Below, in pieces: positions 13,085 to 37,494 of a stretch of DNA of 37,494 nucleotides (positions are counted from its first letter, which is position 1; each line of letters begins with the position of its first letter). This DNA comes from an uncultured Pseudomonadota bacterium (lineage in GTDB: Bacteria; Pseudomonadota; Alphaproteobacteria; Rs-D84). Position numbers and translations under genes: made by a program. The notes below the pieces were generated by a model. That model was given only the letters and a program-made list of their open reading frames with translations, made no database searches and was not told the DNA's origin. The DNA lies in the NCBI GenBank assembly GCA_902793005.1, contig CADBBQ010000007.1:1-37494 (forward strand), given 5' to 3'.

Positions 13085-13110
13085 AAACGCACCGTTTGGT
13101 GCGTTTTTTT
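13085..13110. terminator. Bidirectional terminator between rnpB and the 1404-residue gene
   Basis: AACGCACC pairs with GGTGCGTT over the loop GTTT and is followed by a run of T; the left side has an A-run. It ends rnpB on the plus strand and can also serve the convergent minus-strand gene whose stop codon is at 13109-13111. Confidence 0.85.
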
Positions 13111-16100
13111 ATTCCGTAACACACGTCACATCATCACATACATAATAATTTGTATTGTTATACTGTGTTTTGAATTTATTACCACTGGTTGCAGTTGAAA
13201 TTTGACCGGTGGATGACACGCGCATAGGCGACGCAAAGGTTGACATTTTTGCATAAAAATCCGGACGCCCATTGGCATTACCCGCATAGTTAAACCGCAG
13301 TGACGGCGACGGCACCAACGATGACAGTGCACCCGTTGACGGAATCGATTTTAATCTGATTTCGTGCACGCCAACGTGCAACACGCGTCCACAATCAGCG
13401 GCCTCGTCGTGATAACGGGCGTCCTCGACCGATGAAGTGGTTAATCCACCTGTGCACGATGAACAAGATGCCGCACCGCCAGTACTGTATTTATTTACCG
13501 CACATATCACGGGTGTTGCCTCACCACCGGCACAAGAATATCCCGCCGGACACGATACGCATTCCCCATCGTCCAAATATTGTCCCGCCGAACAGCCCGA
13601 TGTCCGCCATACGGCATACAACGAAATTGTTGCACCGGACGTAGTGGTTAAATTTTGAACGGTATCACTTTCCAAATAACCGTCCCCACTGCCGTCTGTT
13701 GCGGTATTCCAACCATCAAATGTTGCATTGGTTTTTGCCAATGTTCCCTTGGCCGCCAATGTGCAATCTTGATCATATATGCACGTCACAGATGTTGGAT
13801 TTGCCGCGCCCGAACCACCATTGGCGCCAAATGTTATCGTATATGAAATTGGTGTACAGGTCGGCCGCGATGTATTTCCACCCGACAAAGTATATCCATC
13901 ATTACAACTGGCCGAATATGTTACCTGGCCAAGTGTCCCGATTGTGACATCACACGTTCCGTGGGTAATTTCACAATCTTGGGCCCACGCGGCAAACCAT
14001 TCGGTATCACTGGTTAATGTTTCTGTACAGTTTGTCCCGGCACAACCATCCATAGTGGTCAAATTGGTTTTCATTTTAAATCCGGTTGTGGATGATGTAT
14101 TACTGGTGACATCATTTAAATCCGATGTATAATATCCACGGAATTTATATCCGGTGCGCGTCATACCGGGAACCGTTGTAATAGAAGTGCCACTGGGTTG
14201 TCCATTAGTATTTGACGCCCAACGATTGCCATATATTTCAAACAACGAACGGGTATTAGATGTTTCTTTGTTGTCTGTCAAAGTTAACATATATTGTCCA
14301 ACGCCACACGTATAACTGACAGATGTCCCGCCGGCGGTGCCCGTATATGTTCCAGATGTGTTGTATCCCGTATTACACGTCACAACGCATCGCGGTGCAT
14401 TATTCGACGGTGTTGTAATTGTGCCCGTTCCATTTGTGACCGAACAGGTCGGCGTTGCCCAAACCGCATACAAAAGAGTGTCTGACGTAAATGTTCCACT
14501 GTTTGTATATGTTGCCGTGGTTGCATTTGGATCTGTGGACCAACCTAAAAAGATTTTGTTTCCGTTTGTTATATTGCACGGATTTTGAGCATTGTTATTC
14601 CAGGTTTGCAAAGCGCAACTTTCACCAACGTTACAAGTTGTGCTTAATGCGTGCGAACCACTGCCACCATTTGCATCATAAGAAACCGTCACAGAATCCA
14701 CCACACAAACACCGTTTTCCAAGTGATACCCACTAGCGCACTCATACAACGCGCGCAATGTTATTGATGGTGTACTGTCTGCCTGAAATCCGTATATAAG
14801 CAAACTGTTATAATACCCTTGTGTTTTAGATAAACTATTACATTTAGAAAAACTCGCTGCAATATTTTCTGACCCATCACTATTAAACCAGCCTTCATTG
14901 TGTGGATAGGCATAGGTGCCCGTAACAGAATACAAACCCGCATAATAACCATTGGTCGGGGCATTAGGAAACACAATACTGCTCATCGCATTCGTGTCAT
15001 TGCGACAATCATTAACGGTTGGATATATATCACAGTTTGCTGAATTGTAATGAGTGTTATCGATATACATCCAAAATTCTGTTGTTGCACCATTGTTATT
15101 ATTACCACCATTAGTGGTATTATCGATAGCGAACTTATAACAAATACTTTGATTACACGATTCCGAGGAATCTGTCAAAGTGGCGCTGCTGGGATTTCCC
15201 GCAGTACCTATTTTAACTTGTTGGGTATTATTATTATGCGCATACCCGTGTGCGCACGTGTACTGACACTGCGGGGCATTATTAACAGGTGTTAATGTCG
15301 TCGGACTCCCACTAAGAATATTTTGAACAACGGATGGCATATAATCGCAATAAGTATCCTTCCACACGGCATACAGTGTTTGCGAACCGGAAAAGGTTCC
15401 GCTGGTTGTATAATTTGGTTCTGTTGCATTTGAACTGGTTGCCCAACCAACAAATATCTTGGTTCCTTTCGTTATATTACACGAACTGGAATCCCATTCC
15501 GGTAAAGCACAGGCTGATCCTGTACCACAACTAACACTGCCGGCGGTTGTACCGGTTGCACCACCACAAGTGCCGCTTCCGCCATTTTTATTTAATGTAA
15601 TCGTCGTCGAACTTGCCGACCATTGTGCCTGAATATGTGTTGATGTGCCCGATGTGACCCCGGTGTATGTGCTGATGCATCCCCCAGATACCGTCGAACC
15701 GGCGGCCTTGATTGTGCCGTTATTTAATTTCCATCCATTAAACGTATATCCGCTGCGTGATGGGGCGGCCGGTAAAACCAGATTTCCACCATATGTACAC
15801 GAACCATTTGTAACAGTGTCGCCACCATTTTCGTCCCAATTCAATGTAATCGAATTTCCTGTCCAATGTGCGTAATATGTTGTGTCAACCGCATTTATTC
15901 CCAAATGCACCAAATTAACCTGGGTGCCACCGGTACTGGACGTCCACCAACCATTAAATGTATATCCGTCCCGTGTCGGCGTGGCATTATTTACCTGGTT
16001 AACAGACGCGTTCATTCCCAAATTATATTTTTTCACCTGAACAGACGGTGTGCCACCATTTCCATTTAACGTCAAATAAACATAAGGCCACGCATCCAAG

Positions 16101-17323
16101 TATCCCGGTGACGACGGATTTGTTGACACATATTCTGTATTTGCGGGTGTTGTTGCCGGATGAATTGCTGTATAAACATATTGTCCGGTTGGGTTATACA
16201 CCATACGACCAAACGATTCAAAAAATCCGTGCGGGGTTGAATTTACGGTATTATTTGCAACCATCGACTGGGAATAATGTTTATATATGCGTGACATCCC
16301 ACTTGTCATCGCTTGCGTATTATTGTTATATCCAAAATGATTTCGACGTATTATCGGGTTAATACACACCCCGGTTGTTGTATCAAACCATCCGCCGGCC
16401 TCGCATATGCATCGACCGGTTTCACGATTTACCGCAACACCCTCGACCTCTTTCACAGGACACTCGACCGGCAAACCTTCGGAATTAACATAACCGCCGC
16501 CGCTTTCAAAATTCAATATTTCGTTTACATAAGTACGCCAGGTTTGAATATCTGTTATACACCCCAGGGTTGACGGGTCATAAAACAAACAACACCGCCA
16601 TTCGTCGCCGATTAAATAATTTTGTTGACCCGTGGGGCACGGTTCACGATTGTCGGTTAAATCAATACACACATTCTGGCATTCCGAAACAACCCCATCG
16701 GCGCACTGGTCAGCGGCATCGGGATTAAATGTCAATGCCGGATTTTTACACGTACAATCGCACGTCCCGGGAACACCGGTCACAACATCATCTAATCCGA
16801 TATCTTTCATTTTTGATATAACGGCCGAACAAGTGTTTTTTGATTGGAACATCGCCAACGATATAGCATCTTTGTTTAAATAATTAAAGAAATGCCCAAT
16901 ATTTCCGGTTTCCAATTTTTCATTCCAAAGATCACAAAATCTTGAAGAACGCAAATAAAAGACCTCGCACTGTCCCGTGGTTGTATTCAAAACCCCCGAA
17001 GGACATCTGCATTGGTGTGTTGTTGCATTCGGAATTGAACCCTCGGGACAACAGTGTGGATTCCCGTCGCTGTCAATATACAGGGCCGGTTCACTATATC
17101 CGCAACCCAATTTATCAAAATAGTTACCAAAATTGGATTCATTTATACATAAAATCTCGTCTTTGTCGGTAACATAGTAATGCCAACAGCATTGTTTCCC
17201 ATCCCACATCCATCCATTGGCCAAACAGTCCGATTGTTCATCTGCGAACGACACAGAAACGCCCGCAAATACCAATATTACGGCCATAAAAAAACTGGTA
17301 AAAATCCGTGATAAAACTCTCAA
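13109..17323 (-). CDS. Giant secreted Cys-rich protein with InlB/Listeria-Bacteroides-type repeats
   Basis: 1404 residues, starting at a TTG (17323). The TTG is preferred because it gives a full signal peptide, MRVLSRIFTSFFMAVILVFA ending in SFA, with GGGAAGG just upstream. The next ATG would lose the positive charges. The N-terminal ~400 residues are Cys-rich with PNATTHQC and TTTGQC motifs. Between about residues 430 and 1240 lie at least six beta-grasp repeats of the Flg_new/InlB B type, recognised by 'FNGWWTSSTGGT', 'FNGWKLNNG', 'FVGWATSS', 'FLGWSTDP', 'FRGYYTSDLND' and 'FDGWNTATDGSGDG', each ending near LYAVW. A GCC2/GCC3-like Cys segment (CSAGQYLDDGECVSCPAGYSC) follows. No LPxTG anchor or membrane segment is seen at the C-terminus. 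It is probably a surface or adhesion protein. It follows tolA but has its own promoter. Confidence 0.85.
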   Translation of the reverse strand: MRVLSRIFTSFFMAVILVFAGVSVSFADEQSDCLANGWMWDGKQCCWHYYVTDKDEILCINESNFGNYFDKLGCGYSEPALYIDSDGNPHCCPEGSIPNATTHQCRCPSGVLNTTTGQCEVFYLRSSRFCDLWNEKLETGNIGHFFNYLNKDAISLAMFQSKNTCSAVISKMKDIGLDDVVTGVPGTCDCTCKNPALTFNPDAADQCADGVVSECQNVCIDLTDNREPCPTGQQNYLIGDEWRCCLFYDPSTLGCITDIQTWRTYVNEILNFESGGGYVNSEGLPVECPVKEVEGVAVNRETGRCICEAGGWFDTTTGVCINPIIRRNHFGYNNNTQAMTSGMSRIYKHYSQSMVANNTVNSTPHGFFESFGRMVYNPTGQYVYTAIHPATTPANTEYVSTNPSSPGYLDAWPYVYLTLNGNGGTPSVQVKKYNLGMNASVNQVNNATPTRDGYTFNGWWTSSTGGTQVNLVHLGINAVDTTYYAHWTGNSITLNWDENGGDTVTNGSCTYGGNLVLPAAPSRSGYTFNGWKLNNGTIKAAGSTVSGGCISTYTGVTSGTSTHIQAQWSASSTTITLNKNGGSGTCGGATGTTAGSVSCGTGSACALPEWDSSSCNITKGTKIFVGWATSSNATEPNYTTSGTFSGSQTLYAVWKDTYCDYMPSVVQNILSGSPTTLTPVNNAPQCQYTCAHGYAHNNNTQQVKIGTAGNPSSATLTDSSESCNQSICYKFAIDNTTNGGNNNNGATTEFWMYIDNTHYNSANCDIYPTVNDCRNDTNAMSSIVFPNAPTNGYYAGLYSVTGTYAYPHNEGWFNSDGSENIAASFSKCNSLSKTQGYYNSLLIYGFQADSTPSITLRALYECASGYHLENGVCVVDSVTVSYDANGGSGSHALSTTCNVGESCALQTWNNNAQNPCNITNGNKIFLGWSTDPNATTATYTNSGTFTSDTLLYAVWATPTCSVTNGTGTITTPSNNAPRCVVTCNTGYNTSGTYTGTAGGTSVSYTCGVGQYMLTLTDNKETSNTRSLFEIYGNRWASNTNGQPSGTSITTVPGMTRTGYKFRGYYTSDLNDVTSNTSSTTGFKMKTNLTTMDGCAGTNCTETLTSDTEWFAAWAQDCEITHGTCDVTIGTLGQVTYSASCNDGYTLSGGNTSRPTCTPISYTITFGANGGSGAANPTSVTCIYDQDCTLAAKGTLAKTNATFDGWNTATDGSGDGYLESDTVQNLTTTSGATISLYAVWRTSGCSAGQYLDDGECVSCPAGYSCAGGEATPVICAVNKYSTGGAASCSSCTGGLTTSSVEDARYHDEAADCGRVLHVGVHEIRLKSIPSTGALSSLVPSPSLRFNYAGNANGRPDFYAKMSTFASPMRVSSTGQISTATSGNKFKTQYNNTNYYVCDDVTCVTE

Positions 17324-28226: not shown

Positions 28227-28310
28227 ATAATGATACGAAAACAAACCTGTTTTTTACTCAACCACCAATTCACTAGACTATTTTACACACAGAACCCAAG
28301 GGAGTTTATT

Positions 28311-28742
28311 ATGGACGACACACCATCGGCTTTTTCAATATCTCATTATGTTTTACTGTTTATTGTTTCAACACTATGCACGGTTTCCGTGGTATGGGTT
28401 TTAATATCCGCCAACAATCGCGAGGCCGCATTACACGACAAAACCCATATATATCACAAACAATCCAACAAAACTTGTCAACGCGCCACCGCAGACGAAA
28501 TCACATCTATATGGGAAACGCGTCCACACGAAATTCCAAAAGCATACATTTTGATGGAAAACAATTACGCGCACAGAATTGTTCCTGTGCGAACAACCGG
28601 TATGTGTAATGGCAAACCATTTGTTTGCAAAATGGGCGATGTACGATCAGACTGTGACCCGTGTGCAAAAAATTCCGCTCGCAAACGCGCAATGTTCCAA
28701 CATATTTCGGACGCCATCGATCAAGAATGCGTTGATAAATAA
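28311..28742 (+). CDS. Small membrane-anchored Cys-containing protein of unknown function
   Basis: 143 residues from the ATG at 28311, with AAGGGAG seven bases before it. The frame stays open upstream to 28230, but without a ribosome site. One membrane helix (about residues 10-32, HYVLLFIVSTLCTVSVVWVL) anchors a ~110-residue soluble domain. This domain contains conserved-looking cysteines: KTCQRAT, GMCNGKPFVCKMGDVRSDCDPCAK and QECVDK (given in parts). The pairs resemble a metal- or disulfide-stabilised fold, but I do not recognise the family. It stands 82 bases before the giant secreted gene and might be expressed with it; the -10-like CTAGACT at 28273-28279 upstream resembles the one before the giant gene. 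Confidence 0.72.
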   Translation: MDDTPSAFSISHYVLLFIVSTLCTVSVVWVLISANNREAALHDKTHIYHKQSNKTCQRATADEITSIWETRPHEIPKAYILMENNYAHRIVPVRTTGMCNGKPFVCKMGDVRSDCDPCAKNSARKRAMFQHISDAIDQECVDK

Positions 28743-28824: not shown

Positions 28825-31800
28825 ATGTTGAAACACTTACGTTTGTTTGCTGCTTTTGTATTTGCCGCGATTTGTTCTGGTGCAAGCGCGTTGCAACCAA
28901 CGGTTCGTGCCGGCTCTATCAGTATGAGTGGCGGTATCAAACCTGCATCAACGGGTGTTACATCAACCACATCAACAACACCAACGACAACGGCATCTGG
29001 CGATGTTAATGTTTCCCGGGGTTCGGCATTATCAAAATTCACACCAACCGTCGTTCCAATCAGCACCGGCAACAATAACAACAATGTTTCCTCTTCTGTA
29101 TTGGCCGAATTGCAAGAACAAATTAATGATTTGCGCAGCGCGCAACTGGGGTTGGAACAAAACCAGATAACACGTGACGATGTTGAAACAACTGTTGAAT
29201 CATCGATTAAAAATTTGGATATAACAACAACGAATCGTGATTTGAAAAACGCTTTGTCGGAAATCCGTTCTACGAACCAAGGATTATCCACATCGCTAAG
29301 CACAATTCAACAACGCGCAGACGATTTTACAAATTCATTAAACAACGACATTGATAATCGTTTAAAGGTTCGCGGCCTGATTGACGCCAACAACCAAGTA
29401 TCTTTTGCCAACAAATCTGATATTGAACCAAACGTATTGGCCCAGAAAATTGTGGCCGATACAACCGCAACACAAACATTGGCAAATAAAATCCAACCAA
29501 AAGAAAACGAAATTCGCGAAATCATCACTGACGAATTAACCGATGTGGGCGTTTTGAAAAACGGCGCATTGGATGTCGAAAAGAAAGGCCAAGTCCAAGT
29601 CACCGAAGCAACCGTAACAAACGCATTGCGCAATTCACAAAACTTTAAAAATATGGTTTCCGAAGAGGTCGCAACCAAGGGTTATGTCACCGAAACCGCA
29701 TTAAACAGTCGTGATTTTGTCACAAACGCGGCATTAAATTCGAAAAAGTTTGTCACATCCGATTCGGACACTATTCGTAATTTGGCAACCAAAGAAGACA
29801 TTGCGCCTGCAACAATCGCGGCGGCCATCGCCGACAGTGCGGCTGCAACCGCGGCATTAACTGGCAAAGTAGGCACCGACGAAGCGGCCGTTAATCGTTT
29901 AATATTACAAGGTTTAAAAGATAAAGACATTTTAACAAACGGTGGCGAATTAAATGTGGCAAAAACATCTGATATTACCGCTGAAAAAATTGCTGAAAAA
30001 ATTGCAAACAGTGCAAACGCAAAACAAACATTAAATGGACAAATTGGGCCAAACGCAACCGAGGTTGATAACCTTATCAGCACAAAATTAAAATCCAAGG
30101 GTATTTTAAGCAATGACGCCAACGAAACATTGCAATTGGCAACAAAAAACGAAGTTTCTGCCCTGGACAGCAAATTCGCATTAAAAGGCGAGGTTGGCAC
30201 GGACGAGGCCGCGGTCAAAGCACTTATCAAATCCGATTTGCAAAAACGCGGCGTTATTGACGACAAAGAAAACCTGGCCATCGCGACGGACTCGGAGGTT
30301 TCCTCGTTGTCTGGAACGGTTCGTTCATTGCAAGCAACCGTTGACGGTGATGTAAACACATCGGGCAGTTTGCTTTACAGAATTAAAAATAATTCAGAAA
30401 TTCGCGCTGCGTTAAAAGGTGTCGATGGTAAAGACGGAACAAGTTATAAATTAAAGGGTACTGTTGCAAATTATGCGTCATTACCAAAAACAAACAATAC
30501 CGAAGGTGACGGTTGGTTTACCAAGGATTCTGGATTGTTATATGTATACAATTGCGATTCATCCGGTCAAAATTGTGGATACCCCAGCATAAATAACGGT
30601 ATGGACATCAAAGGCGAAAAGGGCGAATCCGCATGGTATGCATACTGCACAGAAATTGACAGAAACGGCAAAACCAATTTGGAAAAAATCATTACACCTT
30701 TGTATTCAACGGTGACGTCTTGTGATAAATTCACATCCGCGCAATATAACGCGATTATGGGTGGCGCGCGCGCATACTGTTTATCATTGGCAAATGATGG
30801 GGCAAACCTGGATTTATCAACCGGCATAGGTAAAAAATTATCAACCGTTTTGGGCAGCACCCAAATGTCTAATTTCAAACGCGCATCTGATGTTCAATCC
30901 AGAATTAAAATGACCGGATTTAAAGATGTCGACAGCAGTAAAAATTTTGTCGAGGCTTGTGAAGAAAAATACAATGAAATTATGTCTGGTAATGATGGCG
31001 AGGACGCAAAATCCGCAGAACAGGTTTATTGCGAGGCACAGGCAGAAAATTATCCATCCGGCACAACAAACCTGACATTAATTAAACAATTATACACCAG
31101 CGTTTCATCTTGTGCGGATTTCACACCAGAAATGTATAACGCAATTATGGGTGGCGCCAAAGCATACTGTTTGTCATTGGCACAAAACCCAACAAAACTG
31201 GTTGCAACAACCGGCATAGGATTAAAATTGGAACAAGCGCTGGGCAAGGGCGTTGTGTCTAATTTGAAAACCAGCAAAGTTGCCACCAAGGTATCTGTGA
31301 ACGGCACGGAAAAGAACTTCGTTTTGGCCTGTGAAGAAAAATACAATGAAATTATGTCCGGTGCCGATGGCAAAGGCTATACATTAAAAGGAACGGTTCC
31401 AACATACGGTGATTTACCAGCATCTAATAATACCGAGGGTGATGGTTGGTATGTAAAATCGAACGGTATGTTATATGTGTACAGATGTGATGACAACGGA
31501 GCAAACTGTGGTTATCCAACCGAAGACAAAGGTATTCCAATGAAGGGCGAGCCGGGTGACAATGGTGAAACGGCGTGGCACGCATACTGTATGGAAACGG
31601 ACAGCAACGGCGTATCGAACCTGACCAAGATAATCACGCCATTGTATTCAACGGTAACAGATTGTGATAAATTCACCAGTTCGCAATACAACGCGATAAT
31701 GGGTGGCGCAAAAGCATACTGCTTGTCGTTGGTGCAAAAAATCGATACTATCGATTTAAACGAAGGTATTGGTAAACGTTTGGCAAAAACATTTACTACG

Positions 31801-34023
31801 GAAAAAATCCAAAGTTTAAAGAGTGCCGACGGCATCCAAAACAAATTAAAAATCAAAACATTTGGTACCAGCAAGAATTTGAATTTCATTGACGCTTGCG
31901 AAGAAAAATACAATGAAATTATGGCCGGCGAAGACGGTGAAGACGCAGAAAGCCCAGAACTTGCCTATTGTAAAGCACCTGCGGCGAACTATACTGACGG
32001 CACAACAAACCTGACTTTGGCACGTAAATTGTTCAACAATTCAAGTCTTGAATGTTCCGACTTTACCGCAGCAATGTATGCGAAAATGATTGGTGGTGCG
32101 GATGCATTCTGCGCAGACTTAACGGCAACATTTAACAAGGTTGATTTAACCAAGGGTGCTGGGTTAAAAATTGCAAAAGTATATGCGTCACAAAAAGGCG
32201 TCGATTTATCCGTGGCAAAAGACGCATTAACGACATTGAAAAATAAAACACCTGCGGCGCGTTTGGCAGATACAAACTTCTCGATATTACAAGCCTGCCG
32301 CGACAACTATAATTCAATTATGTCGGGTGAAGACGCGGAAAGTCCAGAACTTGCCTATTGTAAAGCACCTGCGGCAAACTATACCGACGGCACAACAAAC
32401 CTGATTTTGGCACGTAAATTGTTCAACAATTCAACTCTTGAATGTTCCGAATTTACCGCGGCAATGTATGCGAAAATGATTGGTGGTGCGGACGCATTCT
32501 GCGCAGATTTAACGGCAACATTTAATAAAGTTGATTTAACCAAGGGTGCCGGGTTAAAAATTGCGAAAGTATATGCATCGCAAAAAGGCGTCGATTTATC
32601 CGCGGCAAAAACTGCATTAACAACATTGCAAAACAAAACACCTGCGGCGCGTTTGGCGGATACCAACTTCTCGATATTACAGGCCTGCCGCGACAACTAT
32701 AATTCAATTATGTCGGGCGAAGACGCGGAAACCGCGTGGCACGCGTACTGTGTTGCACAAAACGAAAACGATTCCACAAAAACAAACCTGACCGCAATCA
32801 TCACGCCATTGTATCCAACCGTGACCAAATGTGATCAATTCACATCCACGCAATACAATGCGATTATGGGTGGTGCATCGGCATACTGTCTGTCATTGGC
32901 CCAAGACATCAGCGCCAGCCGTTTGAGCGACTTTAATTCCGGCATTGGCAAACGTTTGAACACACAATTAAAGGCCGACAACGGACAAACAGTCGCTGAT
33001 TTAAAAGGAAAAAATTTGTCAGTGATATTAAACAACAAATTCAATGGCAGTAAAACCTTTGTCAAGGCTTGCGAAGAAAAATACAACGAAATTATGGCTG
33101 GTGCTGACGGTGCCAAAGGCGAAAACGGTGACGACGGTAAATCTGCGGCCGAAACTTGGTGCGAGGCACACCTGATGAAAAACAATATTGTAGCGGTACC
33201 TCTATCCCCGGCCAAAATGGCACGTGCATACGACAAATTATCGAAAATTTCTTCGACATATGCCGCCAAAATTACCGTAAATAAAACCGCCGGCAACGGA
33301 TACTTTACGGATATGGCGTCCTGTCTGGCCGCGGTTGCCGCCGACCCAGACCTGATGGGTGGCGAATCCGAAGCAGATGCCAAATACAACGAATTACAGG
33401 CATCTGAAATCAAAAACAACAAATTTGTCTTGGCCAACGCATTCACCGGATTAAGCAATCACCGCAGCGGTTTCCGTGATACGTACCTCAAAGGTCAAAA
33501 AGGTGATGATGGTGCCGATGGCGTAACATTTACACCGACATTTGACTCGTCAACCGGCAAAATTTCTTGGTCTTCCAGCAAATCCGGCGTATCGGCCCCG
33601 GCCGCAATGAAAGTTGCCAAAACGGATTCAGAATTGGGCACTTTGGCACTAAACGCGGTAAAAACCGGCCTGGGCGGCGATTCCAGCAGCAATTTAAGCA
33701 CCCTGATAACAAACAAAGCATCCAACGCAATTGGCTCACAGGCTGTCACGATGGACGATTTGGTAAACTACATTAATGCAGGATTGTTCAAGGTTGGATC
33801 TAATACCGTTACATTAAATACAGACTTTACAACATCTGGATTATCCAGTGGCGAAACCGCCAGTTTGCAAAAATTGTCTGGTGCCGGTAACAGCAGCGAC
33901 AACACGAAACGTATCGGAACGGTCAACGGCACATGCAACACAAATGGTGTATGCTCTGTGTCAAAAACATCTGCAACTGGATCAAAAACAGACTATAATT
34001 TAACACCTATATTAAACCCATAA
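28825..34023 (+). CDS. Giant secreted modular protein with collagen-like linkers and four-Cys repeat modules
   Basis: 1732 residues from the ATG at 28825 (GGGAGGA upstream); the frame is open back to 28579, but that part overlaps the preceding gene. The signal peptide is cut after ASA (residue 22). In order: a Thr/Ser linker after RAGSISMSGG; a coiled coil (LAELQEQINDL); a helical repeat region of ~68-residue units (about 160-520) with SDITAEKIAEKIANS, 'KGILSNDAN' and LATKNEVSALDSKF; a tail-fibre-like module (533-603, GKDGTSYKLKG then EGDGWFTKDSGLLYVY); four-Cys modules 1 and 2 (604-849); a second tail-fibre-like module (850-915); four-Cys modules 3-6 (916-1428); a divergent segment with GENGDDGKS; and a C-terminal domain (about 1563-1732). 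There is no anchor motif. It is probably an extracellular adhesin or fibre; the function is unproven. Confidence 0.85.
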   Translation: MLKHLRLFAAFVFAAICSGASALQPTVRAGSISMSGGIKPASTGVTSTTSTTPTTTASGDVNVSRGSALSKFTPTVVPISTGNNNNNVSSSVLAELQEQINDLRSAQLGLEQNQITRDDVETTVESSIKNLDITTTNRDLKNALSEIRSTNQGLSTSLSTIQQRADDFTNSLNNDIDNRLKVRGLIDANNQVSFANKSDIEPNVLAQKIVADTTATQTLANKIQPKENEIREIITDELTDVGVLKNGALDVEKKGQVQVTEATVTNALRNSQNFKNMVSEEVATKGYVTETALNSRDFVTNAALNSKKFVTSDSDTIRNLATKEDIAPATIAAAIADSAAATAALTGKVGTDEAAVNRLILQGLKDKDILTNGGELNVAKTSDITAEKIAEKIANSANAKQTLNGQIGPNATEVDNLISTKLKSKGILSNDANETLQLATKNEVSALDSKFALKGEVGTDEAAVKALIKSDLQKRGVIDDKENLAIATDSEVSSLSGTVRSLQATVDGDVNTSGSLLYRIKNNSEIRAALKGVDGKDGTSYKLKGTVANYASLPKTNNTEGDGWFTKDSGLLYVYNCDSSGQNCGYPSINNGMDIKGEKGESAWYAYCTEIDRNGKTNLEKIITPLYSTVTSCDKFTSAQYNAIMGGARAYCLSLANDGANLDLSTGIGKKLSTVLGSTQMSNFKRASDVQSRIKMTGFKDVDSSKNFVEACEEKYNEIMSGNDGEDAKSAEQVYCEAQAENYPSGTTNLTLIKQLYTSVSSCADFTPEMYNAIMGGAKAYCLSLAQNPTKLVATTGIGLKLEQALGKGVVSNLKTSKVATKVSVNGTEKNFVLACEEKYNEIMSGADGKGYTLKGTVPTYGDLPASNNTEGDGWYVKSNGMLYVYRCDDNGANCGYPTEDKGIPMKGEPGDNGETAWHAYCMETDSNGVSNLTKIITPLYSTVTDCDKFTSSQYNAIMGGAKAYCLSLVQKIDTIDLNEGIGKRLAKTFTTEKIQSLKSADGIQNKLKIKTFGTSKNLNFIDACEEKYNEIMAGEDGEDAESPELAYCKAPAANYTDGTTNLTLARKLFNNSSLECSDFTAAMYAKMIGGADAFCADLTATFNKVDLTKGAGLKIAKVYASQKGVDLSVAKDALTTLKNKTPAARLADTNFSILQACRDNYNSIMSGEDAESPELAYCKAPAANYTDGTTNLILARKLFNNSTLECSEFTAAMYAKMIGGADAFCADLTATFNKVDLTKGAGLKIAKVYASQKGVDLSAAKTALTTLQNKTPAARLADTNFSILQACRDNYNSIMSGEDAETAWHAYCVAQNENDSTKTNLTAIITPLYPTVTKCDQFTSTQYNAIMGGASAYCLSLAQDISASRLSDFNSGIGKRLNTQLKADNGQTVADLKGKNLSVILNNKFNGSKTFVKACEEKYNEIMAGADGAKGENGDDGKSAAETWCEAHLMKNNIVAVPLSPAKMARAYDKLSKISSTYAAKITVNKTAGNGYFTDMASCLAAVAADPDLMGGESEADAKYNELQASEIKNNKFVLANAFTGLSNHRSGFRDTYLKGQKGDDGADGVTFTPTFDSSTGKISWSSSKSGVSAPAAMKVAKTDSELGTLALNAVKTGLGGDSSSNLSTLITNKASNAIGSQAVTMDDLVNYINAGLFKVGSNTVTLNTDFTTSGLSSGETASLQKLSGAGNSSDNTKRIGTVNGTCNTNGVCSVSKTSATGSKTDYNLTPILNP
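30151..30393 (+). repeat. 243-bp dispersed repeat, copy in the 1732-residue gene
   Basis: Matches 37021-37263 in the second giant gene with seven differences in 243 bases by eye (about 97%). It codes for the last helical repeat and the start of the VRSLQATVDGDVNTSGSLLY segment, just before the collagen-like linker. Identity is lost abruptly after AATTAAAAATAAT. Confidence 0.9.
31951..32730 (+). repeat. Two tandem copies of a 390-bp coding repeat
   Basis: Copy one is 31951-32340 and copy two is 32341-32730, each coding for 130 residues (modules 4 and 5 of the giant protein). By eye they differ at 26 of 390 positions (about 93% identical), mostly at third codon positions. Each codes for AYCKAPAANYTDGTTNL, 'MIGGADAFCADL' and ILQACRDNYNSIMSG. 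Confidence 0.9.
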
Positions 34024-34024
34024 C

Positions 34025-34057
34025 AAAAAATCCCGGGTTAACCCGGGATTTTTTTTA
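34025..34057 (+). terminator. Rho-independent terminator of the 1732-residue gene
   Basis: AATCCCGGGTT pairs with AACCCGGGATT to form a strong, nearly loop-free palindrome followed by a run of eight T. It starts right after the TAA at 34021-34023. Confidence 0.9.
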
Positions 34058-34099: not shown

Positions 34100-34176
34100 C
34101 GGGGTGTAGCTCAGCCTGGTAGAGTACTTGCATGGGGTGCAAGGGGTCGCAGGTTCGATTCCTGTCACCCCGACCA
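34100..34176 (+). tRNA. tRNA-Pro (anticodon GGG)
   Basis: 77 bases with encoded CCA. The acceptor stem CGGGGTG (34100-34106) pairs with CACCCCG (34166-34172). The D arm is GCTCAGCCTGGTAGAGT. The anticodon stem CTTGC/GCAAG encloses the loop ATGGGGT, so the anticodon is GGG, reading CCC and CCU. The T arm GCAGGTTCGATTCCTGT is regular. A hairpin with AAACCGC/GCGGTTT at 34186-34202 then acts as its terminator. It lies between two giant secreted-protein genes. Confidence 0.95.
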
Positions 34177-34198
34177 AAAATTCAAACCGCGTTTTGCG

Positions 34199-34231
34199 GT
34201 TTTAATTTTTGTTTGTGCGACAATTGGAATT
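34199..34231 (+). repeat. 33-bp direct repeat, copy 1
   Basis: Identical to 34498-34530, 299 bases downstream. The shared core includes GTTTGTGCGACAATTGGAATT-type sequence starting at 34209. Copy 1 follows directly on the hairpin that ends tRNA-Pro. The stretch between the copies (34232-34497) holds no convincing gene, only the tRNA 3'-end copy, a GTTAC/GTAAC hairpin at 34304-34330 and a terminator-like hairpin. Confidence 0.85.
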
Positions 34232-34597: not shown

Positions 34598-34638
34598 TAA
34601 AGAAGGATTATTTTATGATAAATACAGGGAGAAAAATC

Positions 34639-37494
34639 ATGAAAAAATTCGGGATTTTTGCGTTCTTTTGCACATTATGTGGTGCGGCATTTGCCGCGGC
34701 CAGTATCCGTGCCAGTTCTGTTCCATTGTCGGGCGGAACAACCGTCAGTGCACCAAAATCCGCTGTTTCAACAACCACAACCGCATCCGATTCGAATGCA
34801 TCGGATAACAGTGCCCAATCGTCCAGTAATGTTGATGTAAATAACTCCCGTATTTCGTTCGCGTCACCACTGGGCAAGGTTAATCGGTATTATGTTCCGG
34901 CGGGCACACACAACACACAACCATCACAAACCGAAACGGCCGAAACCGCCAAAGAATTGGCCGAACTGCAACGCCAAATTGACAATTTAATCCAAAAACA
35001 AACGCAAATTGAAACAACTTTGCCGACAACTGTTCAAACAGAAATTAAAAATTCTGATTTGACCAAAAACGCCAGTTTTAACGAGGCTATATCCGATTTG
35101 CAAGACAATGTCGCATCAATTGATACAATTAACCAAACCGTTGAATCAAAAATTGATAATAAATTGATTGAATCTGGAATCGTTGACAATCGTGGCAAAC
35201 TGTTGGTTGCAACCACCGACGAAATCCAACCAATTGCATTGGCACAAAAAATGGAAAGTACATTGGCGGTAAAATTTGCAAAAAAATCTGATTTTACACC
35301 GTCAAAAATCGCATCAAACATCGTCAGCGATAACACCGCCGTATCTACATTGGCTGGGAAAATCGGCACAAACGAAGATACAGTCAAAGATTTAATTAAA
35401 TCAGACTTACAAAAACGTGGTATCGTTGATGGCGATAATAAATTACAAGTTGCCAAGAAAACCGAATTGCCGGTAATTGATACAGACACGGTGTCTGCGG
35501 CATTACAAAATACACCTGCGTTTGACAATATGATTTCACAAAATTTAACGGCGCGTGGTATTTATGACGCCAGCAACCAATTACAACTGGTAAAAAAATC
35601 CGAAATCACACCTGAATTTTTATCGGCTAAATTAGATTCTAAATACGCAAAATCTGATGAAATCACAAATTTAGGAAACCAATTATCACTTATCCGTGAT
35701 GGCGACGAAAACACATCTGGTTCAATTGCATATAAATTAAAAAACGCCGGATTTGCAAAAACAACCGACATTACCCCGGAATCTTTGACACGCAAACTGG
35801 ATGGGGTTTACGTCCGCCCCAGTGCGATTACATCTACCGAATTATCTAATAAATTGGCAGATGTCTTTGTAACCCCAAATCAATTGGCCGGGAAAAATTA
35901 CGCAACTAAATCCGAATTACCCGTCGTAAACGAAGAAACTGTCTCGGCGGCATTGCGTAATTCCACAACACTGGACGACACAATTGTCAGAAATTTAAAA
36001 TCCAAACGGTTATTGAACGACAACAACGAATTAAATGTCGCCACAAAATCCAGCGTTGATACATTATCCAGCAACATTTCATCCACAATCGGAACATTGG
36101 CCACGAAAAACGAAGTTGCCGCATTGGACAACCGTTTTGCAAAAACATCCGATATCACCGCCGATGCAATTGCTGACAAAATCGCGGCCAGCGACACCGC
36201 CCGTGAAAAATTAAACGGCAAAATCGGCACAGACGAAACTGCGGTAAAAAAATTAATTTTATCGGATTTGAAAACACGTGGCATTGTTGACAACGGCAAT
36301 AATTTAAATGTCGCCACCAAATCCAGTGTTGACGCATTATCCGACAATATTTCATCCACAATCGATACATTGGCAACAAAGAACGAAGTTGCTGCGTTGG
36401 ACAATAAATTCGCATTAAAAGACGATATTGGCACAAATGAAGACGATGTGAAATCTTTGATTTCTGCGGACTTGAAAAAACGCGGCATCATCGGTACAGA
36501 CGACAAATTAAATGTCGCCACCAAATCCAGCGTTGATACATTATCCGACAATATTTCATCCACAATCGATACATTGGCAACAAAGAACGAAGTTGCTGCA
36601 TTGGACAATAAATTCGCATTAAAAGACGATATTGGCACAAATGAAGACGATGTAAAATCTTTGATTTCTGCGGACTTGAAAAAGCGTGGCATTATTGATG
36701 ACACGACCGAAACATTAAAACTGGCCACCAAGGACGATGTTCGTGTTGAAAATTTGGTTGAAAAATTGGATGACACATTTGCAAAATCCAGTGATTTAAC
36801 GGCCGAAAAAATCGCAACATCCATCGCCGAAAGTGATGCCGCGCGTGAAAAATTATCTGGACAATTGGGCACCAGCGAACAAGACGTCACAAATATTTTG
36901 GTCGCAAAAAACATTTTGAAAAACGACGCAAACAAATCCTTGAATTTGGCCACCAAGGAAGATGTTTCAACATTGTCCAACACCGTATCAAACACAATCG
37001 ACACATTGGCCACAAAAAATGAAGTTTCCGCCCTGGACAGCAAATTCGCATTAAAAGGCGAGGTTGGCACGGACGAGGCCGCGGTCAAAGCACTTATCAA
37101 ATCCGATTTGCAAACGCGCGGTGTTATTGACGACAAAGAAAACCTGGCCATCGCGACAGACTCCGAGGTTTCCGCGTTGTCTGGAACGGTTCGTTCATTG
37201 CAAGCAACCGTTGACGGTGATGTAAACACATCGGGCAGTTTGCTTTACAGAATTAAAAATAATGAAACATTGCGCACTGCATTAAAGGGAACCGACGGTA
37301 AAGATGGTAAAGCCGGAAAAGACGGAACCAGTTATAAATTAAAAGAACCTGTCCAACATTATACGGATTTAAGTGCTTTGGCATCATCCGCCGAAGAGGG
37401 TGACGGACACTATGTTTTGGACAACGGTAAATTGTATGTGTACACCTGCGACACAAACGGCACCTGTGCATTTCCAACCGAGGACAAAGGTATC
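34639..37494 (+). CDS. Second giant secreted modular protein, 3' end outside window
   Basis: 952 codons are visible with no stop to the last base. CAGGGAGAAAAATC precedes the ATG. The signal peptide MKKFGIFAFFCTLCGAAFA is cut after residue 19. The next residues, ASIRASSVPLSGG, match the paralogue's RAGSISMSGG. A Thr/Ser/Asn linker (about 20-95) and the coiled coil LAELQRQIDNLIQKQ follow. From about 120 to 870 come many ~68-residue units built from SDITxxxIAxxIA, 'GTDETAVKKLI..DLKxRGI' and LNVATKSSVDTLS. Near residue 885 a collagen-like GTDGKDGKAGKDGTSYKLK starts a tail-fibre-like module (EGDGHYVLDNGKLYVYTC). The four-Cys modules, if present, lie beyond the window. It is probably an exported fibre or adhesin; the function is not known. 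Confidence 0.85.
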   Translation, partial: MKKFGIFAFFCTLCGAAFAAASIRASSVPLSGGTTVSAPKSAVSTTTTASDSNASDNSAQSSSNVDVNNSRISFASPLGKVNRYYVPAGTHNTQPSQTETAETAKELAELQRQIDNLIQKQTQIETTLPTTVQTEIKNSDLTKNASFNEAISDLQDNVASIDTINQTVESKIDNKLIESGIVDNRGKLLVATTDEIQPIALAQKMESTLAVKFAKKSDFTPSKIASNIVSDNTAVSTLAGKIGTNEDTVKDLIKSDLQKRGIVDGDNKLQVAKKTELPVIDTDTVSAALQNTPAFDNMISQNLTARGIYDASNQLQLVKKSEITPEFLSAKLDSKYAKSDEITNLGNQLSLIRDGDENTSGSIAYKLKNAGFAKTTDITPESLTRKLDGVYVRPSAITSTELSNKLADVFVTPNQLAGKNYATKSELPVVNEETVSAALRNSTTLDDTIVRNLKSKRLLNDNNELNVATKSSVDTLSSNISSTIGTLATKNEVAALDNRFAKTSDITADAIADKIAASDTAREKLNGKIGTDETAVKKLILSDLKTRGIVDNGNNLNVATKSSVDALSDNISSTIDTLATKNEVAALDNKFALKDDIGTNEDDVKSLISADLKKRGIIGTDDKLNVATKSSVDTLSDNISSTIDTLATKNEVAALDNKFALKDDIGTNEDDVKSLISADLKKRGIIDDTTETLKLATKDDVRVENLVEKLDDTFAKSSDLTAEKIATSIAESDAAREKLSGQLGTSEQDVTNILVAKNILKNDANKSLNLATKEDVSTLSNTVSNTIDTLATKNEVSALDSKFALKGEVGTDEAAVKALIKSDLQTRGVIDDKENLAIATDSEVSALSGTVRSLQATVDGDVNTSGSLLYRIKNNETLRTALKGTDGKDGKAGKDGTSYKLKEPVQHYTDLSALASSAEEGDGHYVLDNGKLYVYTCDTNGTCAFPTEDKGI
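36306..36713 (+). repeat. Two near-identical 204-bp tandem units in the second giant gene
   Basis: The sequence from 36306 recurs at 36510, a period of 204 bases or 68 residues. Both copies code for LNVATKSSV, NISSTIDTLATKNEVAALDN and KDDIGTNEDDVKSLISADL. A related unit at 36033 is 69 bases longer to the next (273), because it adds a 23-residue SDITADAIADKIAAS segment. Confidence 0.85.
37021..37263 (+). repeat. 243-bp dispersed repeat, copy in the second giant gene
   Basis: Matches 30151-30393 with seven differences. It codes for the last helical unit and the segment before the collagen-like linker, the same place in the protein as in the first giant. Confidence 0.9.

Follow-up and report, generated by a model that had tools for sequence, protein, structure and literature searches.

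The window analysed here, 37,494 nt of contig CADBBQ010000007.1 (assembly GCA_902793005.1) from Candidatus Enterousia (Alphaproteobacteria, order Rs-D84; genome 0.83 Mb, 91% complete), carries a gene for a giant exported protein in which six copies of a four-cysteine module (module A) are joined by short Gly-X-Y tracts. From its sequence, module A is a new, predicted helical domain, restricted to one lineage and new to the libraries searched. The reading we favor, with a probability of about 0.55, is that this module and its Gly-X-Y links are parts of a giant secreted, probably trimeric attachment fibre. Rs-D84 bacteria have shed most of their biosynthetic capacity and are believed to subsist on partner cells. 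They are reduced-genome Alphaproteobacteria from animal guts, considered by inference to be obligate symbionts or parasites, and dependence on a partner has been inferred for them (PMC12306168).

The features of the locus are listed in Table 1. The frame of giant 1 opens with an ATG immediately downstream of a ribosome-site-like sequence (GGGAGGAAAT), and the whole protein gave no NCBIfam match over the cut-off. A continuous coiled-coil has little support in its stalk, the signal at period 3.5 (z 3.5) being weak against that at period 5 (z 8.8).

Table 1. Features of the locus of the proposed giant fibre (window positions).
Feature	Position	Strand	Basis or remark
Small membrane-anchored, Cys-containing protein	28230..28742	+	no Pfam/NCBIfam match
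Giant 1, exported protein of 1732 aa, proposed fibre	28825..34023	+	N-terminus conserved in other Enterousia
Signal peptide MLKHLRLFAAFVFAAICSGASA, then conserved LQPTVRAGSIS	28825..28890	+	inspection and alignment
Repetitive stalk, tail-fibre-like	29089..30425	+	weak heptad signal, period of 5 stronger
Module C copy 1 (KGTV..LP..NTEGDGW, two Cys)	30442..30612	+	motif matches copy 2, read from sequence
Four-Cys module A copy 1	30622..30990	+	family profile
Four-Cys module A copy 2	31006..31362	+	family profile
Module C copy 2	31372..31545	+	homology to phage minor tail protein/phrog_3904
Four-Cys module A copy 3 (copy modelled)	31564..31929	+	family profile
Four-Cys module A copy 4	31945..32328	+	family profile
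Four-Cys module A copy 5, recent duplicate of copy 4	32335..32718	+	family profile
Four-Cys module A copy 6	32725..33102	+	family profile
Two-Cys module B	33139..33495	+	profile and model
C-terminal stalk and tail	33496..34020	+	
Intrinsic-terminator-like hairpin, strong, 13 pairs	34025..34054	+	directly after giant 1 stop
tRNA-Pro(GGG), between the two giant genes	34100..34176	+	marks insertion site
Giant 2, paralogue of giant 1 and proposed fibre, N-terminal part	34636..37494	+	runs past window end

The original prediction had placed six copies of the module at 30634–33108. All six are present in a single frame, each matching the family profile at E ≤ 1e-43, and they occupy 30622–33102, so that the proposed start has to be moved 12 nt upstream and the proposed end falls 6 nt earlier. 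The family as collected here comprises 39 copies from nine Enterousia genomes, each copy different from the others, with two to eight copies per protein and a number that differs between species. Exactly four cysteines occur in every one of the 39 copies, as had been proposed, and the spacings given earlier (~25 and ~55 residues) hold as approximations of the actual ranges, which are 20–30 residues for C1–C2, 19–22 for C2–C3 and 52–72 for C3–C4; the AYC said to begin each unit is general, except that copy 2 has VYC. Positions C9, L27, C34, F37, Y42, G48, C53 and C112 are invariant over 26 copies, and none of 26 copies matched Pfam or PHROGs at E ≤ 0.01. Module A also lacks NCBIfam and PDB-sequence matches, in agreement with the view that it corresponds to no named domain. 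The AlphaFold2 model of copy 3 is confident and all-helical, with eight helices (pLDDT 90.6, pTM 0.77), which together with the signal peptide seen on inspection supports the exported helical domain envisaged at the outset. No structure in the PDB or BFVD was matched by the model at a Foldseek E ≤ 0.001, and none of 98 chains reached a VIA Z of 2 or more, a rare outcome for a helical domain that may reflect an unusual or extended chain path.

Copies 4 and 5 share 93% nucleotide identity (dN 0.024, dS 0.27) and represent a recent duplication, and the species pair L060/L055 differs by a dN of 0.034 and a dS of 0.15. Since dN lies below dS in both comparisons, the copies are under purifying selection, and the values for copies 4 and 5 indicate that giant 1 is a real, constrained protein. 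Exchange between the two giant genes is also evident: a stretch of 66 codons in copy 3 (31564–31761) shares 97% nucleotide identity with the L021 paralogue, the first 65 residues being identical in protein sequence, as expected from recent recombination at this point. A second new domain, missed by the earlier reading, follows the A modules on their C-terminal side in all proteins that are complete in that region. This module B (~110 residues) has exactly two cysteines in 12/12 copies, and its model (pLDDT 92.5, pTM 0.85) had no structural match in the PDB or BFVD. Kinship between the two modules was considered and set aside, as they have only a [KE]SA..[WY]C start in common (profile comparison, probability 1.7%).

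The segments between modules, described earlier as acidic, Gly-rich joints, are indeed acidic and contain glycine, but their collagen-type identity had been overlooked: judged by their sequences, they consist of whole Gly-X-Y triplets. Counted from the closing Gly of module A up to the first Cys of the module that follows, the 33 short links are all 7, 10, 13, 16, 19 or 22 residues long, every one of these lengths being 1 mod 3; among them are 30 distinct sequences of one to six triplets, in which X is mostly E/D and Y mostly D. Distances within the module, on the other hand, vary freely across the mod-3 classes (15/12/12 for C1–C2, 15/13/11 for C3–C4). Because the links share ancestry, (1/3)^30 overstates the odds, and the changes between the six lengths alone correspond to about 1 in 250. 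Changes in length by whole triplets are the published behaviour of the collagen domains of the E. coli EPcl proteins (PMC3368898). The best match to Pfam Collagen (PF01391), found in L059, had an E-value of 0.065 and 13.4 bits against a gathering score of 27.2, with none for giant 1, and tracts this short may be unable to fold into a stable triple helix on their own.

That the tracts are short and acidic, and score below the Collagen cut-off, would also suit a monomeric bead-on-a-string protein, periplasmic or secreted, whose links would be no more than flexible acidic spacers, their triplets having arisen by duplication of 9 bp of DNA. The anchor search fits this too: no known outer-membrane anchor was recognised, and no YadA-type Pfam match was found in giant 1, in giant 2 of L052 or in six other giants scanned, some of them cut off where their contigs end. 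Flexible spacers, however, need not keep triplets, yet these were kept in 33/33 links over six lengths while loops elsewhere drift, and trimeric tail fibres are the closest likeness of the stalk and of module C. We regard the monomer as an unlikely competitor of the trimeric fibre.

The resemblance to tail fibres raises a different alternative, namely that the giants are fibres of a phage or domesticated prophage and not cell-surface proteins. Module C, which is absent from the earlier reading and points to a fibre protein, matched in its copy 2 the tail fibre protein phrog_3904 (E 1.8e-10), and in the phage search module C matched minor tail proteins (E 2e-5). The homologues are minor tail proteins of Gordonia and Mycobacterium phages (phrog_3904-type, 35–47% identity); the stalk is tail-fibre-like, and the giant genes flank a tRNA. 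Unlike the giants, however, those phage homologues are virion proteins, and neither module A nor module B was found in them; module C was alone in matching in the phage search, and profile searches detected the other two modules nowhere in viral contigs, and nothing in plasmids. A signal peptide is present on every giant whose N-terminus could be read, whereas tail fibres need none, and no virion genes lie near the giants, which have housekeeping genes (argS, corA, histidine kinase and acpS) as neighbours in conserved order. That the giants are phage or prophage fibres is improbable.

In genomes that carry the island and whose contig covers the locus, the genes for response regulator, histidine kinase, argS and corA precede, in that order, the small gene and giant 1. 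On a single contig of L052 the small gene is followed by giant 1, tRNA-Pro, giant 2 and acpS, while L099 and L101, which lack the giants at this site, have small gene, tRNA-Pro and acpS, and L100, also without giants here, has the small gene beside acpS and the tRNA just beyond. Comparison of these gene orders places the giants on either side of tRNA-Pro at a chromosomal site. Hairpins are found on both sides of the tRNA gene, at 34025–34054 and 34184–34202. The tRNA lies on the same strand as the giants here and on the opposite strand in L051, L052, L053 and L055, a difference that points to a small inversion. The truncated gene that lies at one end of contig C11 is very probably the C-terminal part of giant 2, as it ends beside acpS, like giant 2 in L052; the two pieces (the end of C7, and C11) add at least five copies of module A. 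At its C-terminal end giant 2 carries EGF-like repeats rich in Cys, such as CPEGTYFNEESMKNTSLPRCVC (L021:2682-6524, L052:9818-15247), which had no Pfam match. The small upstream gene, encoding several cysteines, was matched in 64/156 genomes of the genus, but close versions occur only in the same 11 genomes as the giant N-terminus, with divergent versions elsewhere in the genus, and for this reason its product may assist the fibre.

The four invariant cysteines of module A probably form two disulfides, as the earlier reading suggested, an arrangement that would yield exactly four cysteines per copy. A DsbA-like protein is encoded in the genome; searches of the 91%-complete assembly yielded neither DsbB nor VKOR, so the cysteines would have to be oxidised through a different partner or by oxidants from outside. 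Binding of metal or haem by the cysteines, in a periplasmic metal store or electron carrier, would accord with four invariant cysteines per module and with the DsbB/VKOR result, but is the least probable of the readings considered, as the module A consensus is without CxxC or CxxCH, the cysteines are far apart, module B has exactly two, and the protein is exported by a cell that has a DsbA-like protein.

Under the attachment-fibre reading, the giant chain would be exported by Sec, and the tail-fibre-like stalk and collagen-type connectors would bring three chains into parallel register. The four-cysteine beads would then form protease-resistant knobs along the fibre, varying in number and surface by duplication and recombination, and the fibre would attach its bacterium to a partner cell or to the surface of the gut. 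We infer the trimer, the disulfides, the surface location and adhesion, the register of three chains, surface display and binding being taken from known collagen-like proteins such as Legionella Lcl (PMC11162425). Lcl is likewise a secreted protein of a Gram-negative bacterium with a signal sequence and a collagen-like region, and is a trimer on the surface, as is presumed for the giants; it differs in having one collagen stalk, a single DUF1566 head and no repeated Cys modules. The EPcl proteins of pathogenic E. coli prophages (PMC3368898) share with the giants Gly-X-Y tracts between phage-fibre modules, whose lengths differ by multiples of three, and have a helical stalk and are trimeric in solution, the state proposed here, but they are prophage-encoded, with longer collagen domains, globular modules at the ends only and no cysteine-bead modules. 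Trimeric autotransporter adhesins (YadA class) are also modular exported stalk proteins of Gram-negative bacteria, whereas the giants have collagen-type links and lack a YadA-type membrane anchor. The giants would work like a collagen-linked adhesin of the tail-fibre type, but they are not assigned to Pfam Collagen, the trimeric autotransporters or the phage fibres, since a tested defining feature fails in each; the type of object is known, and the libraries searched do not contain the domain family. A stronger version, in which modules A and B are new folds acting as disulfide-locked trimeric knobs in collagen register, and the whole is an undescribed class of surface fibre that holds the partner cell on which genome-reduced Enterousia depend, is doubtful, at perhaps one chance in four.

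By profile searches, module A was detected in nine Enterousia genomes, and none was found in other Rs-D84 genera or in 381 sampled genomes from outside the order (class sample, 384 other genomes). Module B is limited to seven genomes, all within the module A set, and the conserved N-terminus of the giants is clear in 11 genomes with three further weak matches, all Enterousia. Of the 156 Enterousia genomes searched, 11 have the locus, and three others that were examined have the site without it, a distribution that makes attachment testable. The literature search found no publication on these giant proteins and no attachment device described for Rs-D84 bacteria, for which the locus offers a concrete candidate. 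In addition, the locus contributes two domain families not described before, both confidently modelled and unmatched by any solved structure, and shows clearly how collagen-type triplets can serve to space small beads.

Several weaker matches to the module A profile were rejected. Those in other Enterousia (E 0.002–0.008) come from proteins of another Cys-rich family (SCQEQYNECMDQFC), and their alignment is confined to the tail of the module. Matches of 30–70 residues (E ~0.002) in G163 and G166, from another genus of the same family, were left out of the count, and a 33-residue match in G163 to a smaller profile (E 8.5e-5) was read and then discounted as module A. The separate Enterousia family of exported Cys-rich proteins (L062–L066; SCQEQYNECMDQFC) has an SR(A/V)(I/V)P-like motif after the signal peptide, which recalls the VRAGSIS of the giants. 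Another likely surface protein is encoded in the window on the reverse strand (13109–17323), a Cys-rich exported protein of 1404 residues with Listeria-Bacteroides (InlB-type) repeats (PF09479, E 7.6e-39).
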